From: Opitutia bacterium ISCC 52
GTDB taxonomy: Bacteria; Verrucomicrobiota; Verrucomicrobiia; Opitutales; UBA2995
NCBI GenBank assembly: GCA_014529675.2
Contig: CP076040.1
Coordinates: 744,001-808,000, forward strand
DNA: 64,000 nucleotides
Reading direction: 5' to 3'
Shown here: in pieces, positions 16,988 through 21,852 of the stretch
How positions within the stretch are numbered: the stretch's first letter is position 1
Layout of the letters: every line of letters starts with the position of its first letter
The notes under the pieces: model-generated
Database searches by the model: none
Told to the model about the DNA's origin: nothing
The model's input: only the letters and a program-made list of their open reading frames with translations
Made by a program: the position numbers and the translations under genes

Positions 16988-17944
16988 TTAATTCACCGAA
17001 AGCTCGGATGAACGTTGTCTCAGACGTTTTAGACTTTGTGCTAGAAGTCCGCGTCGTGGACTGGTAATCCAGATTAAACAGAATAACCCAAATCCTGATG
17101 TAACCATAGCTCCAGCTTGAGAGCAATTGAGCCATTCGGCCAAGTGTATGCCTGCAAGTGAATAGAAGCCTCCAAAGATGATGGAGAGTATGAGAATATG
17201 AGGCAGGCGATCTGAAAGAAGTGCACCCGTGGCTCCTGGCATGATCAACATCGCAATTACAAGAATAGCTCCTACGGATTCGAATGAAAAAACAATGACC
17301 AAGGATAGCATTATCATTAATCCATAATGTATCCACGAAGCTGGAATCCCCAAGGAGGTTGCCAGGCCTGAGTCAAAGGATGTTACTAAGAGCTCTTTGT
17401 AAAAAACGATGACCAGAGCCAAAACGGCCAAAAAGGTGGCGCCCATTTGTAGGAGAGGAATGGGAACCTCGGCCCCAAAAACTGACCAAGAATCTGCGAA
17501 ACCTATCCATCCTATTTCACCGTATAGAACACATTCGAGATCTAGGTCCACCTGGTCAGCGAATACCGAAATAAGAATTACTCCTATCGCGAAGAAAGTG
17601 GTAAAGGTAACGCCTAAGGCTGCGTCTTGTTTCACTCTAGTTTTTTTATGAATAAACTCGATCAGCCAAACTGAAGCTAACCCTGCCGCAAGTGCACCTG
17701 TGACCATTAGACCTGTAGATCTGGAATTAGAAATCAGAAAAACAACTGCGATTCCAGGCAGTAGGCTATGACTTATGGCATCACCAACAAGAGCCATGCG
17801 GCGAAGAATTAAAAAGTTTCCAACAAGTCCACAAGCGGCATTAACTAGAAACCCCATAAGCAGAATCCAAATAGAGCCACTCAGTCCATCTGACCAAGGA
17901 GCGGTGATGAATGTGTGAAGATCGAATGGTGGAATGAAGTCCAT
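16988..17944 (-). CDS. Metal ABC transporter permease (ZnuB/YtgD type)
   Basis: 318-residue integral membrane permease of the ABC-3 family for Mn, Fe or Zn. Eight to nine hydrophobic segments; the cytoplasmic coupling sequence GDAISHSLLPGIA is near residue 55, and the repeated F-Y-K-E-L-L-V-T-S-F-D loop is near residue 155. It is the last gene of the ATPase / permease-repressor / permease operon, only 5 bases after the fusion permease. Gene order matches chlamydial YtgB-YtgCR-YtgD. Confidence 0.93.
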   Translation of the reverse strand: MDFIPPFDLHTFITAPWSDGLSGSIWILLMGFLVNAACGLVGNFLILRRMALVGDAISHSLLPGIAVVFLISNSRSTGLMVTGALAAGLASVWLIEFIHKKTRVKQDAALGVTFTTFFAIGVILISVFADQVDLDLECVLYGEIGWIGFADSWSVFGAEVPIPLLQMGATFLAVLALVIVFYKELLVTSFDSGLATSLGIPASWIHYGLMIMLSLVIVFSFESVGAILVIAMLIMPGATGALLSDRLPHILILSIIFGGFYSLAGIHLAEWLNCSQAGAMVTSGFGLFCLIWITSPRRGLLAQSLKRLRQRSSELSVN

Positions 17945-17949
17945 GATTC

Positions 17950-19410
17950 CTAGTGTCCGGTCTGGACCTCCTTCAAATCAATCACGCTAGGAATGCGCTT
18001 CCCGTGAGGATCCAGGGTTGGGAAATCTAGAAGTCGCTCCAGTTCCCGAACGATGTTCTCTCCCAAAACGTGTTCTATTTCTTCAGCGTCATCGTGGACA
18101 TGATCAGGTTGGTAGTGAGCAGACTTGGTAAGATAGAGTTCCCATAGTCTGTGGTTTCTAACAATACGGCATGCGTTCTCCCAACCTGAAGGCGTGAAGT
18201 ATATCATTTGGTTTTGATTTAACGTGTCATCGTCGGATGACGCTAGAGTGGCATAGCGCTCTCTTATGAGCCGCTTCGCCTCTTTCTTTACTTCAGATAG
18301 CGGAAGGTTTCGTTGCTCTCCTAGCTGTTGAAGTGAAACCCCGTCTTCCTTGAAGTCTGCTTTTTCGCGAATCTGATAGACTGCTTTCAGGGTATTTTCG
18401 ATTTGAATACGATTGTTTCTATTTAACTGGCGGACCCAGCGAGGAACGATGCCGTATCGAGGCCCGAACAGTAAGGCTAGGCCGAAAAGCGTACTGGCAC
18501 TCACAATCATGAATGGGCCTGTCGGGAGGCTGTTTCCGAGGTAGGAGAAAAAGGCACCACCAATTCCAGCCATCATTCCAAATACACTCGCTAATATGAG
18601 CATCCGGTGCATGCGATCTGTTAAGAGGTAAGCCGTTGCTGCAGGTGTAATAAGCATGGCAGAAACTAATACAATCCCCACTGCTTGTAAGCCTACGACT
18701 ACGGAGAAAGCGAGTAGCAGCATCAATTGGTAGTGAAAGAACTTCGCTGGCATACCAATGGAACTGGCGAATGCATTATCGAAGCTGGTAACGAGAAACT
18801 CTTTGTAGAAAAGTGTAATGAGTAATAATGAAACTCCTGTGACCACAGCGATCATTACAAGATCGCTCTCACTCAATGCCGCTGCTTGTCCAAACATGAA
18901 CTTATCTAAACCTGCCTTGTTACCGTTAGGTAAGTGTTGGATCATCGTGTGGAGACAAATGCCTATGGCATAGAATCCTGATAGCACGATACCCATCGCG
19001 CTATCTTCTTTGATATGTGTGGTCGTATGTATCCCATGAACAACGACAGTCCCCAGTAGACCTGCTATAGTAGCTCCAATAAAGATGGACCATGGGTTTT
19101 TTGTCATAGTCCATAAGAAGCCCAACGCAACTCCTGGAAGGACAGCATGGCTAAGCGTATCACCCATCAACGATAGCTTTCGAACCACGATGAAACTTCC
19201 AAGAAGCCCGCAACAAGTGCCCAGCATCAGGGCTGCAAGCACGGCATAACGAACGGAGGGATCTTTAAAAGAAAAGAACCGAATGAATTGCTCTGAGAAA
19301 TTCGTTTCTGAAAGTTCTCCAATTTTGGCAGCACATGCGTCTGAAACCAGAAATAAACTGGCAAAGATGAGTAGCCCACTCAGCTTTGAAATCTGAGGGT
19401 GGATGCTCAT
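17950..19410 (-). CDS. Metal ABC permease fused to a DtxR/MntR-type repressor domain (YtgCR-like)
   Basis: 486 residues in two parts. Residues 1-330: ABC-3 permease with signal-like N-terminus, GDTLSHAVLPGVA loop and F-Y-K-E-F-L-V-T-S-F-D loop. Residues about 340-486: DtxR-family winged helix (LKAVYQI...LQQLGEQRNLPLSEVKKEAKRL) and metal-binding dimerisation domain with N-H-R-L-W-E-L-Y-L, A-E-E-I-E-H and DPHGKRIPS. The ligand string has Glu where DtxR has Cys, as in Mn-sensing MntR; the N-terminal D/E ligands of MntR appear as N and K. In Chlamydia trachomatis the same fusion is cleaved to release the repressor YtgR; cleavage here is inference. ATGA overlap with the ATPase gene. Confidence 0.93.
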   Translation of the reverse strand: MSIHPQISKLSGLLIFASLFLVSDACAAKIGELSETNFSEQFIRFFSFKDPSVRYAVLAALMLGTCCGLLGSFIVVRKLSLMGDTLSHAVLPGVALGFLWTMTKNPWSIFIGATIAGLLGTVVVHGIHTTTHIKEDSAMGIVLSGFYAIGICLHTMIQHLPNGNKAGLDKFMFGQAAALSESDLVMIAVVTGVSLLLITLFYKEFLVTSFDNAFASSIGMPAKFFHYQLMLLLAFSVVVGLQAVGIVLVSAMLITPAATAYLLTDRMHRMLILASVFGMMAGIGGAFFSYLGNSLPTGPFMIVSASTLFGLALLFGPRYGIVPRWVRQLNRNNRIQIENTLKAVYQIREKADFKEDGVSLQQLGEQRNLPLSEVKKEAKRLIRERYATLASSDDDTLNQNQMIYFTPSGWENACRIVRNHRLWELYLTKSAHYQPDHVHDDAEEIEHVLGENIVRELERLLDFPTLDPHGKRIPSVIDLKEVQTGH

Positions 19411-20195
19411 CTCTCCAAAGGCAATTCGTCGGATTGCTTTTGTCTCGAATTGGCGACTTCGGATAGAATTGTCAAACGACCTCCATACGTGGTTTGCAAC
19501 TTATCGTAGGTATAAACATCCTTGGTGGCCCCGAAATCGATTTTTCTCATATTGAGAAGCAGAAGCATATCAAAATACTCCTTGGCGGTGGTCAGATCAT
19601 GATGCACGACCATCAGGGTCTTTCCTCGCTCCCTTAATTCCATAAGGATGTTGATAATGGCAGATTCTGTAGCGGCATCCACACCAGCGAAGGGTTCGTC
19701 TAGGAAATAAAGATCACTCTCTTGAGCCAACGCGCGGGCCAGGAAGACGCGTTGTTGCTGTCCGCCTGACAAATTCGAAATTTGACGTTGGGCGTAAGGG
19801 GCCATGTTCACTTTTTCCAAGCAGGCCATGGCAATTTCTCTATCCTTTTTGCCGGGACGTCTCATGAGCCCCAGGTGCCCAAAACGGCCCATTAATACCA
19901 CATCCATTACATTCACAGGGAAATCCCAATCTACCGATTCACGTTGTGGAACGTAGCCCACACGTTTTGCGTTTTTTCGATAGGGCTTACCAAAAATTTT
20001 AACCCACCCACTACTGGAAGGGATCATTGCCATGATGGTTTTTATTAAGGTCGACTTTCCAGCACCATTGGGACCAACGATCCCAACAAGTTGGCCTGCC
20101 GGTACCTCAAGATCGATACCGTATAAAACAGGTTTCTTGTGATAGGCTACTGTGAGGTCATGGATTTCAAGGGGAAGTGGAATCTCGGGTGACAT
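19407..20195 (-). CDS. Metal ABC transporter ATP-binding protein (YtgB/ZnuC type)
   Basis: 262-residue ABC ATPase: Walker A GPNGAGKST near residue 40, Q-loop PQRESVDWDFP typical of Mn/Zn importers, signature LSGGQQQR, Walker B LYFLDEPFAGVD, and H-loop MVVHHDL. First gene of the downstream transcription unit: its own promoter and palindromic operator lie within 75 bases upstream. The next gene overlaps it by 4 bases. Confidence 0.95.
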   Translation of the reverse strand: MSPEIPLPLEIHDLTVAYHKKPVLYGIDLEVPAGQLVGIVGPNGAGKSTLIKTIMAMIPSSSGWVKIFGKPYRKNAKRVGYVPQRESVDWDFPVNVMDVVLMGRFGHLGLMRRPGKKDREIAMACLEKVNMAPYAQRQISNLSGGQQQRVFLARALAQESDLYFLDEPFAGVDAATESAIINILMELRERGKTLMVVHHDLTTAKEYFDMLLLLNMRKIDFGATKDVYTYDKLQTTYGGRLTILSEVANSRQKQSDELPLER

Positions 20196-20221: not shown

Positions 20222-20268
20222 ATTTTGATTCGTCAAAATTAAAAAACGAGTATTTTCCTGATTTGCAA
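20222..20268 (-). promoter_or_regulatory. Promoter with 18-bp palindromic operator upstream of the ATPase-permease operon
   Basis: Perfect palindrome with arms ATTTTGA / TCAAAAT and 4-base centre at 20222-20239. On the minus strand a -10 like TTTAAT (20238-20243) overlaps its upstream edge by 2 bases, and a -35 like TTGCAA (20263-20268) is 19 bases away. A copy with the same arms and the same geometry precedes the binding-protein gene. Probable target of the fused MntR-like domain (inference). Confidence 0.72.
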
Positions 20269-20312
20269 GCCTTTGCTTGTTAAGGCATTTCTACTTATCT
20301 AGCGTTGAGAGC

Positions 20313-20774
20313 CTATTCAATATCCCCAATGGGGGCTTTAGGACGAGTAGTGATACTGCCATTCATTACGGGTCTACCTGTATTGGGGATCACCTGAATG
20401 GCACGATCGTCCCACAACTCGATCATAGCGAAATCCTTCTCGTTGGTGACCTCCAGGTCTGGCAATCCCTGTTTTTTCAACCAGGATTGTACCGGTGGAA
20501 TTCCATCGGCCTCACAGGCTCTGGCTGTGACGATTTTCACTCGGATTCCGCGGTCTACCCACATTTTTACTCGGTTGAGCATTTGTGGAATGGGCTTACC
20601 TATGTGGTGTTTGCTGATCCAAAGATCATGTTTTGCCAGGGTGCCATCCAGATCTACGCCAATCCAAGGTCCATCTTGAGGCATAGGGTGCTCCGCATTT
20701 TCCTCGAGTGGGAGCATATCGCCCTCGGCGCCATTTAATTCTTTGGCAAAGAAATTTTTGATCCGTTGAAGCAT
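20313..20774 (-). CDS. Small HAD-superfamily phosphatase-like protein
   Basis: 153 residues. The HAD motif I G-V-D-L-D-G-T-L-A (about residues 38-46) is followed by a motif II-like I-V-T-A-R and motif IV-like ELWDDRAIQV. There is no large cap domain, so it resembles small nucleotidases or polynucleotide-kinase 3'-phosphatase-like proteins; substrate unknown. It sits between the binding-protein gene and the ATPase gene of the metal importer on the same strand, but a terminator upstream and a separate operator downstream isolate it from both. Confidence 0.78.
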   Translation of the reverse strand: MLQRIKNFFAKELNGAEGDMLPLEENAEHPMPQDGPWIGVDLDGTLAKHDLWISKHHIGKPIPQMLNRVKMWVDRGIRVKIVTARACEADGIPPVQSWLKKQGLPDLEVTNEKDFAMIELWDDRAIQVIPNTGRPVMNGSITTRPKAPIGDIE

Positions 20775-20845
20775 GAGTTAGCAAGTGGAGGCGAGAAGCC
20801 TTCTATTCAAATCAGCATGGTTAATGAGGAGGGAGTGTCACCACG

Positions 20846-20866
20846 AAAAACCCTATTTGGGTTTTT
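20846..20866 (-). terminator. Terminator after the metal-binding protein gene
   Basis: AAAAACCC / GGGTTTTT perfect 8-bp stem with 5-nt loop. The T-tract forms on either strand; it lies 39 bases past the stop of the solute-binding protein gene. Confidence 0.72.
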
Positions 20867-20904
20867 AGCATAATAATAAAAACTGAAATGGTAGATTCTT
20901 AGTT

Positions 20905-21807
20905 CTACTTCAGTGCCTCGACAATACGATAGACATTATGTTTCAACATTCCTTCGTATGTTCCCAAATCGTAAGTGTCACCTTGACGTGTCTCTGATTC
21001 TCCAGGAACTCCCATCGCATCGGAGAAAAGTTCACCGCCGATACCTATTCCAGCATCTTTACTAATACGCTCAATGGCTGCTGGAGAAACGGATGATTCT
21101 ACAAAGATGGCCCGAACTCCATTGTCTTTTATGAAATCCACCATTTTGGCGATATCGGCAAGTCCTGCTTCGGTGACAGTCGAGATTCCCTGTACGCCCA
21201 CCACTTTAAAGCCGTAGGCCCGGCCAAAATAGTTAAAGGCATCATGGCTAGTAATTAAAATACGGTGTTTGGGTTCGATTTGTCCAATGGAAGACTTAGC
21301 CCAGTCGTGAAGCGCTTCGTACTCAGCCATTACTCGAGTTCCTTGCTCCTTGTAAAAGGATGCATTCGAGGGATCGGATACACTTAGACCTTCAACGACG
21401 ACACCCACTGCTTCCATCCATAGAGTCGGGTCAAACCATATATGCGGATCGTAGTGACCGGCGAATTCAGGTGGTTCCAATAATCGACCTTCTTCAATTT
21501 CCTCTGTGACTGCGTAAACTTTTTTCCCCTTTCGAGCTAGTTTGACGAGAACGTCGCCAATACGGCCTTCCAAGTAGAGTCCGTTATAGAAAACAAGTTC
21601 GCACTTTTGCAGACTGCGGACGTCTCCAGCGGTTGCTTTGTAAAGATGAGGATCAACCCCTGGCCCCATCAATCCTGTTACCTCGATTCTTTCACCGCCT
21701 ACCTCTTGGACCAGATCGGTTATCATGGTGGTAGTGGTCACCACCTTTAATTTTGCTGAAACAGAAATCGTAGCAATTAAGCTAATTAGAGTAATGAAAG
21801 TTTTCAT
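20905..21807 (-). CDS. Metal ABC transporter solute-binding protein (YtgA/TroA type)
   Basis: 300-residue periplasmic cluster-A-I binding protein. Signal peptide MKTFITLISLIATISVSA; then V-V-T-T-T-T-M-I-T-D-L at the mature N-terminus, GVDPHLYKAT (first His ligand, about residue 56), DPHIWFD (second His), L-I-T-S-H-D-A-F-N-Y-F (third His) and an acidic ligand near E-S-S-V-S. The mix of ligands fits Mn, Fe or Zn import. Its start codon is embedded in the edge of the 18-bp operator. Confidence 0.94.
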   Translation of the reverse strand: MKTFITLISLIATISVSAKLKVVTTTTMITDLVQEVGGERIEVTGLMGPGVDPHLYKATAGDVRSLQKCELVFYNGLYLEGRIGDVLVKLARKGKKVYAVTEEIEEGRLLEPPEFAGHYDPHIWFDPTLWMEAVGVVVEGLSVSDPSNASFYKEQGTRVMAEYEALHDWAKSSIGQIEPKHRILITSHDAFNYFGRAYGFKVVGVQGISTVTEAGLADIAKMVDFIKDNGVRAIFVESSVSPAAIERISKDAGIGIGGELFSDAMGVPGESETRQGDTYDLGTYEGMLKHNVYRIVEALK

Positions 21808-21852
21808 TTTGATTAATCAAAATATTAAGCAATGGTATTCTTCCCTGGTCAA
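21806..21852 (-). promoter_or_regulatory. Promoter and palindromic operator overlapping the start codon of the metal-binding protein gene
   Basis: Palindrome at 21806-21823 with the same ATTTTGA / TCAAAAT arms as the site at 20222. A -10 like TAATAT (21822-21827) overlaps it by 2 bases, and a -35 like TTGACC (21847-21852) is 19 bases away, an identical arrangement. The last two operator bases are the A and T of the ATG, so the predicted 5' leader would be only about 8 bases. Confidence 0.75.

Follow-up and report, generated by a model that had tools for sequence, protein, structure and literature searches.

Among the closest described systems, Treponema TroR/troABCD combines an ABC metal importer with a free DtxR-family regulator whose gene lies within the operon. 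The T. denticola TroR, 222 aa long and extended at its C terminus, is responsive to Mn and Fe, and the tro operators were tested as oligonucleotides that include ATTTTGATATATCAAAAT for T. denticola and ACTTTGATGCATCAAAAT for T. pallidum (PMC2628430). In Chlamydia, the metal ABC permease YtgCR carries a C-terminal DtxR-like domain with metal ligands (PMC5599777) and acts as a repressor once cleaved (PMC5599777, PMC7755916), a repressor reading of permease-DtxR fusions that has been extended to other phyla (PMC5599777). Bacillus subtilis MntR and Streptococcus mutans SloR recognize 18-bp sites and bind cooperatively at neighboring ones (PMC11275975, PMC12096823), and Deinococcus radiodurans DR2539 is a Mn- and Fe-dependent repressor of mntH (PMC3327659). 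Finally, an MntR-regulated CQNC TonB receptor with a thioredoxin-fold module has been described in Stenotrophomonas, the module being reported in Opitutales too (PMC13217887).

We analyzed a 64,000-nt stretch of the genome of Opitutia bacterium ISCC 52 (CP076040.1, positions 744,001 to 808,000; hereafter, the window) that encodes an ABC metal importer with a DtxR-like domain at the C terminus of one permease, as in YtgCR. The importer genes stand behind two copies of a palindrome with the operator letters of Treponema, and a free DtxR-family regulator of 218 aa is encoded in the genome. This likeness to TroR lies in the operator letters, in the kind of ABC metal importer, and in the length and type of the regulator. 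Unlike in Treponema, the regulator gene is unlinked to the importer, there are two operators per importer and a weak copy at +22, and one permease is a fusion. Unlike YtgCR, of which the cleaved YtgR part represses, the system described here has a free regulator that the operator follows, and the recognition helix of the fused domain is not conserved. The sites share their 18-bp size with those of MntR and SloR, but B. subtilis MntR sites are 1 bp apart against a register of 22 bp here, and S. mutans SloR sites are built of 6-6-6 elements such as AATTAA/TTAATT against arms ATTTTGA/TCAAAAT here. DR2539 (8pvt) has the closest solved fold to the fused domain, but it is a free protein of another organism, and the likeness is one of fold. 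As in the Stenotrophomonas module, CQNC TonB receptors stand behind the palindrome in relatives, with a probable thioredoxin-fold gene next in three loci; the predicted MntR box of Stenotrophomonas is, in contrast, a 25-bp palindrome. Altogether, we consider it highly probable that the palindromes are TroR-box operators of a Mn-uptake regulon read by the free TroR/MntR-type repressor and that the fused tail is not the reader.

Exact palindromes in front of both importer units

The features of the importer system are as follows (positions in the window).

16988-17944, minus strand: permease 2, 318 aa (PF00950)
17950-19410, minus strand: permease 1 with C-terminal DtxR-like domain, 486 aa (PF00950, PF02742)
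17953-18447, minus strand: DtxR-like C-terminal domain of permease 1, residues 322-486 (fold and conservation)
19407-20195, minus strand: Mn/Fe-type ABC transporter ATPase, 262 aa
20200-20217, no strand: weak second operator (O2) of the ATPase-permease unit (offset scoring)
20222-20239, no strand: main operator (O1, TroR box) of the ATPase-permease unit (exact match, conservation)
20238-20243, minus strand: -10-like hexamer TTTAAT of the ATPase unit, overlapping O1 by 2 bases (sequence)
20263-20268, minus strand: -35-like hexamer TTGCAA of the ATPase unit (sequence, family comparison)
20313-20774, minus strand: HAD-phosphatase-like protein, 153 aa, between the SBP and ATPase genes (no Pfam match)
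20905-21807, minus strand: SBP, periplasmic metal-binding protein of ZnuA/TroA/MntC type, 300 aa (PF01297, 4.9e-75)
21784-21801, no strand: weak second operator (O2) of the SBP gene (offset scoring)
21806-21823, no strand: main operator (O1, TroR box) of the SBP gene (exact TroR-box match, conservation)
21822-21827, minus strand: -10-like hexamer TAATAT of the SBP gene, overlapping O1 by 2 bases (sequence)
21847-21852, minus strand: -35-like hexamer TTGACC of the SBP gene (sequence, family comparison)

The palindrome ATTTTGA-N4-TCAAAAT is exact at both places where the first-pass annotation had located it, 20222-20239 (ATTTTGATTCGTCAAAAT) and 21806-21823 (ATTTTGATTAATCAAAAT). Since the tro operators of T. 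denticola and T. pallidum fit the consensus A[T/C]TTTGA-N4-TCAAA[A/G]T exactly, we identify the palindrome as a TroR box.

A pattern search of the complete genome (4,815,747 bp) returned three exact palindromes and two sites with a single mismatch. The third exact copy, which the first-pass annotation had missed together with the weak second operators, lies at 2,989,881, 73 bp before the gene of a predicted outer-membrane protein whose N-terminal part has a His-rich stretch. Beside this site lie short frames, possibly from a broken gene, with resemblance to the end of an RND metal-efflux pump (L005, 4763-5349). A shuffle expectation of 7.3 matches at ≤3 mismatches per 64 kb translates into a chance estimate of ~0.07 exact sites but 2 to 3 sites at ≤1 mismatch per genome, and thus only the exact sites stand out. 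The single-mismatch sites (in the msrA promoter and inside a sugar-binding-protein gene) are about as numerous as chance predicts and were kept out of the regulon. Over 103 genomes of the order, the nearest named genomes being Opitutales, 37 exact palindromes were found versus 1 for a reversed control pattern; exact sites in or beside genes without clear metal function (G016, G067, G026, G004, G008:C8, G028, and G078:C337) were taken as chance. The arms are AT-rich, as chance repeats in AT-rich promoters would be, but both the excess over the estimate in this genome and the excess over the control pattern in the order speak against such an origin, which is refuted by the conserved place of the palindrome in orthologous operons and to which we give practically no credence.

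To follow the operator, the fused-permease loci were retrieved from genomes of the order and annotated by tblastn. The palindrome recurs upstream of orthologous operons in the order, and the earlier proposal that both units form one regulon is supported. In the family of the window (including G064, G048, G032, G089, G007, and G078), the HAD-like gene is present and the palindrome stands at both units, one copy having one arm change in G032 and two in G048. Within the order, the HAD-like gene between the SBP and ATPase genes is confined to this family, where it occurs together with the second unit's operator. The rest of the order usually has a single operator, upstream of the SBP gene (~0.8 kb upstream in G011).

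A weak second operator and two predicted promoters

All offsets around 44 operators were scored for arm matches out of 14. The offset +22, on the gene side, had a mean of 8.5/14 versus a background of 4.1 (standard deviation, 0.87) and was one of the three best-scoring offsets in 27 of 34 promoters; -22 does not stand out in the same scoring of the 44 operators. A weak O2 at +22 is conserved over the order. In the window, the O2 of the SBP gene (ACTTTCATTACTCTAATT on the gene strand) lies within codons 3 to 8 of that gene and the O2 of the ATPase-permease unit is CTTTTTAACGATAGAAAT on the gene strand, each being 22 bp downstream of its O1 and matching 10 of 14 arm bases; seven further loci score 9 to 11 at this offset. 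By analogy with MntR and SloR, which bind adjacent sites cooperatively (PMC11275975, PMC12096823), a second dimer probably binds O2 in a cooperative manner.

The first-pass annotation had described an identical promoter geometry at the two units. Its hexamers are as described in the window, where both predicted promoters have a 19-bp spacer and a -35 that begins 24 bases past the operator edge, but their conservation in the family is partial: TTGAC is found 25 to 29 nt upstream of the operator in SBP promoters of 7/7 members and TTGCAA at -29 in ATPase promoters of only 4/7. The promoter layout varies, several relatives having TTGACA downstream of O2. As a conserved feature, a fixed -35/-10 geometry held only in part. 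The SBP start codon (21805-21807) shares its first two bases with the end of O1, an overlap found at the same position in relatives of the window's family. No Shine-Dalgarno sequence is apparent at this start codon, and the leader would be ~10 nt long with the predicted promoter.

The operator tracks the free regulator

Two PF02742 proteins are encoded in the genome of the window, i.e., the permease fusion and a free TroR/MntR-type regulator of 218 aa with PF01325, PF02742, and FeoA domains, whose gene (at about 4,440,944-4,441,600) is unlinked to the importer operon. No palindrome was found at this gene (best match, 9/14), and autoregulation in this genome was accordingly rejected. A peroxiredoxin-like gene lies directly upstream of it (L008, 769-1275), and a similar gene is found nearby in G031 and G047.

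Nine relatives (G008, G094, G027, G095, G001, G074, G045, G086, and G097) have the free regulator and SBP genes as immediate divergent neighbors that flank the palindrome; in G070, the regulator gene is divergent as well, at a distance of ~1.2 kb. In G066, the palindrome lies between the free regulator gene and an outer-membrane-protein/NRAMP unit, and no fused permease was found in this genome. Among 38 fusion operons, the palindrome is present in 25 of the 28 with a long free regulator in the genome versus none of the 10 without (Fisher, 6e-7), and within fusion clade 2 alone in 8/11 versus 0/10 (P = 0.001), values that overstate independence because the genomes compared are related. It was absent in G054 (long regulator), at the second operon of G002, and in one Hydrogenedentota genome. 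A second set, made of genomes from GTDB contigs, gave the palindrome upstream in 7/8 with a long regulator and in 0/18 without. In G107, G108, G112, G117, and G119, the fusion is the sole PF02742 match and the palindrome is absent, with the caveat that these assemblies may be incomplete.

A 500-bp upstream scan had left some operons without a long regulator apparently devoid of any operator. A scan of the whole locus overturned this result, as all ten carry ATGTAGC-N4-GCTACAT, which has the same 7-4-7 layout, and a short MntR is present in their genomes. In G041, the short MntR gene is divergent from the operon with this second motif in between. The fusion operons of short-MntR genomes with ATGTAGC-N4-GCTACAT are L088-L098 and L101. 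These operators are also tandem, at 23 to 24 bp, in G083, G069, and G071. Three copies in 23-bp steps (1293, 1316, and 1339) are seen in L090, and neither operator type in L100 (G002:C11), the second fused-permease operon of G002.

The operator at the importer operon hence tracks the free regulator, not the fusion, in both sets of genomes. This bears on two other candidate readers. A Fur-family regulator (Fur, Zur, or PerR type) could bind the palindrome, and three Fur-family proteins are indeed encoded in this genome; such a reader is very unlikely given that the palindrome matches the TroR operator, is divergently linked to a TroR/MntR-type gene, and is exchanged for another operator with the type of DtxR-family regulator. 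The first-pass annotation had instead named the fused C-terminal domain of permease 1 as the candidate repressor, which would have to be cleaved off or to act at the membrane like chlamydial YtgR. The YtgCR precedent (PMC5599777, PMC7755916), a predicted DtxR fold with winged helix, and conserved metal ligands plead for this candidate, and the domain may retain some binding to DNA. It nevertheless appears improbable, since the palindrome equals the tested TroR operator and follows the free regulator: where that regulator is missing, fusions have either a different operator or none of this type, the five genomes in which the fusion is the sole PF02742 match lack the palindrome, and G066 has the palindrome beside the free regulator gene with no fused permease found.

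The DtxR-like domain fused to permease 1

The recognition helix argues in the same direction. The AlphaFold2 model of the fused domain (mean pLDDT, 83.9) has a DtxR fold including the winged helix, with DR2539 (8pvt) as the closest solved structure (TM 0.84 by target), and the domain has no PF01325 match. In matched genomes, pairwise identity of the recognition helix is 28.7% in fused proteins versus 66% in free regulators, i.e., it is not conserved in the fusion, whereas the metal/dimer part is equally conserved in both (72.5% versus 75.1%). Both fusion clades share four invariant positions that are likely ligands (H, E, E, H) and an invariant Trp in HRLWE that was not seen in the aligned free regulators.

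Both proteins have the fold and a metal site, and they co-occur in most palindrome genomes. They might share the palindrome, with the fused domain bound to it as a second sensor that is tethered to the membrane. We give this dual reading the same low probability as the fused repressor, because the fused recognition helix drifts freely while the operator stays fixed and because the fusion is retained where the operator differs. The fusion is kept whichever free regulator/operator pair is in use; together with a preserved metal/dimer part and a drifting recognition helix, this would suit a transporter sensor more than a DNA reader. Beside the free regulator as reader of the operator, the fused tail thus most likely senses metal on the cytoplasmic side of the transporter to adjust transport. 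More specifically, it may be a repressor fold that no longer reads an operator and serves as a metal-bound brake on its own transporter, a tentative proposal to which we attach somewhat less than even chances.

Other genes behind the palindrome and the metal

In relatives, CQNC-type TonB receptors and an NRAMP transporter belong to the predicted regulon. In L149, L151, and L176, the operator is followed, in this order, by the genes of a CQNC TonB receptor, a probable thioredoxin-fold protein, the SBP, and the ATPase; in the genome of the window, no CQNC TonB receptor is linked to the palindrome. CQNC-type receptors directly behind the palindrome were observed in L149 (478-3146), L151, L176, L177, L107, L109, and L042, and some sit within the importer operon with a thioredoxin-like gene. 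The response of T. denticola TroR to Mn and Fe, the NRAMP gene in G066, and the CQNC TonB receptors, a type tied to MntR in Stenotrophomonas (PMC13217887), lead us to infer Mn, possibly Mn/Fe, as the metal of the regulon.

Other genes were also seen behind the palindrome. PF13557 outer-membrane proteins (annotated as phenol degradation) with an RPDATE motif follow it in L106, L104, L105, and L050 and are probably metal-related. In G031 (L102, 3283-5178) and G047 (L103, 4778-6694), the gene behind it encodes a large protein, one domain of which is like di-haem cytochrome c peroxidase/MauG.

Discussion

We propose a model of metal-dependent repression by the free regulator based on the following: (i) its metal-bound dimer (218 aa, with a winged helix, a metal/dimer domain, and an FeoA/SH3 domain) would bind the 18-bp O1; (ii) a second dimer would probably join cooperatively on O2, 22 bp or two helical turns downstream; and (iii) given a -10 that overlaps the operator edge and a -35 that lies 24 bases past it, the transcription start site would fall inside O1. 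The complex would then cover the -10 region together with the likely start site, and at the SBP gene the start codon as well, and would exclude RNA polymerase, as suggested by the promoter/operator layout together with how the DtxR/MntR family works. The first-pass annotation had likewise proposed a repressor that blocks RNA polymerase; our analysis supports an operator so placed and a metal-dependent repressor of the DtxR/MntR type. In the window's family, the HAD-like gene splits the SBP gene off from the ATPase-permease genes, the ATPase unit having its own operator.

Our study provides the Opitutales (Verrucomicrobiota) with a readable Mn regulon whose operator is known and whose candidate repressor can be named, and connects metal uptake with several outer-membrane proteins whose cargo is unknown. 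The occurrence of two operator/regulator pairs before one operon provides a natural test as to which protein is the DNA reader. Our results also argue that a DtxR-like domain on a permease need not be a DNA-binding repressor. If the fused domain does act as a brake, the importer would have a fast feedback on transport beside the slow transcriptional feedback by the free regulator, and many permease-DtxR fusions now read as repressors would be transport valves.
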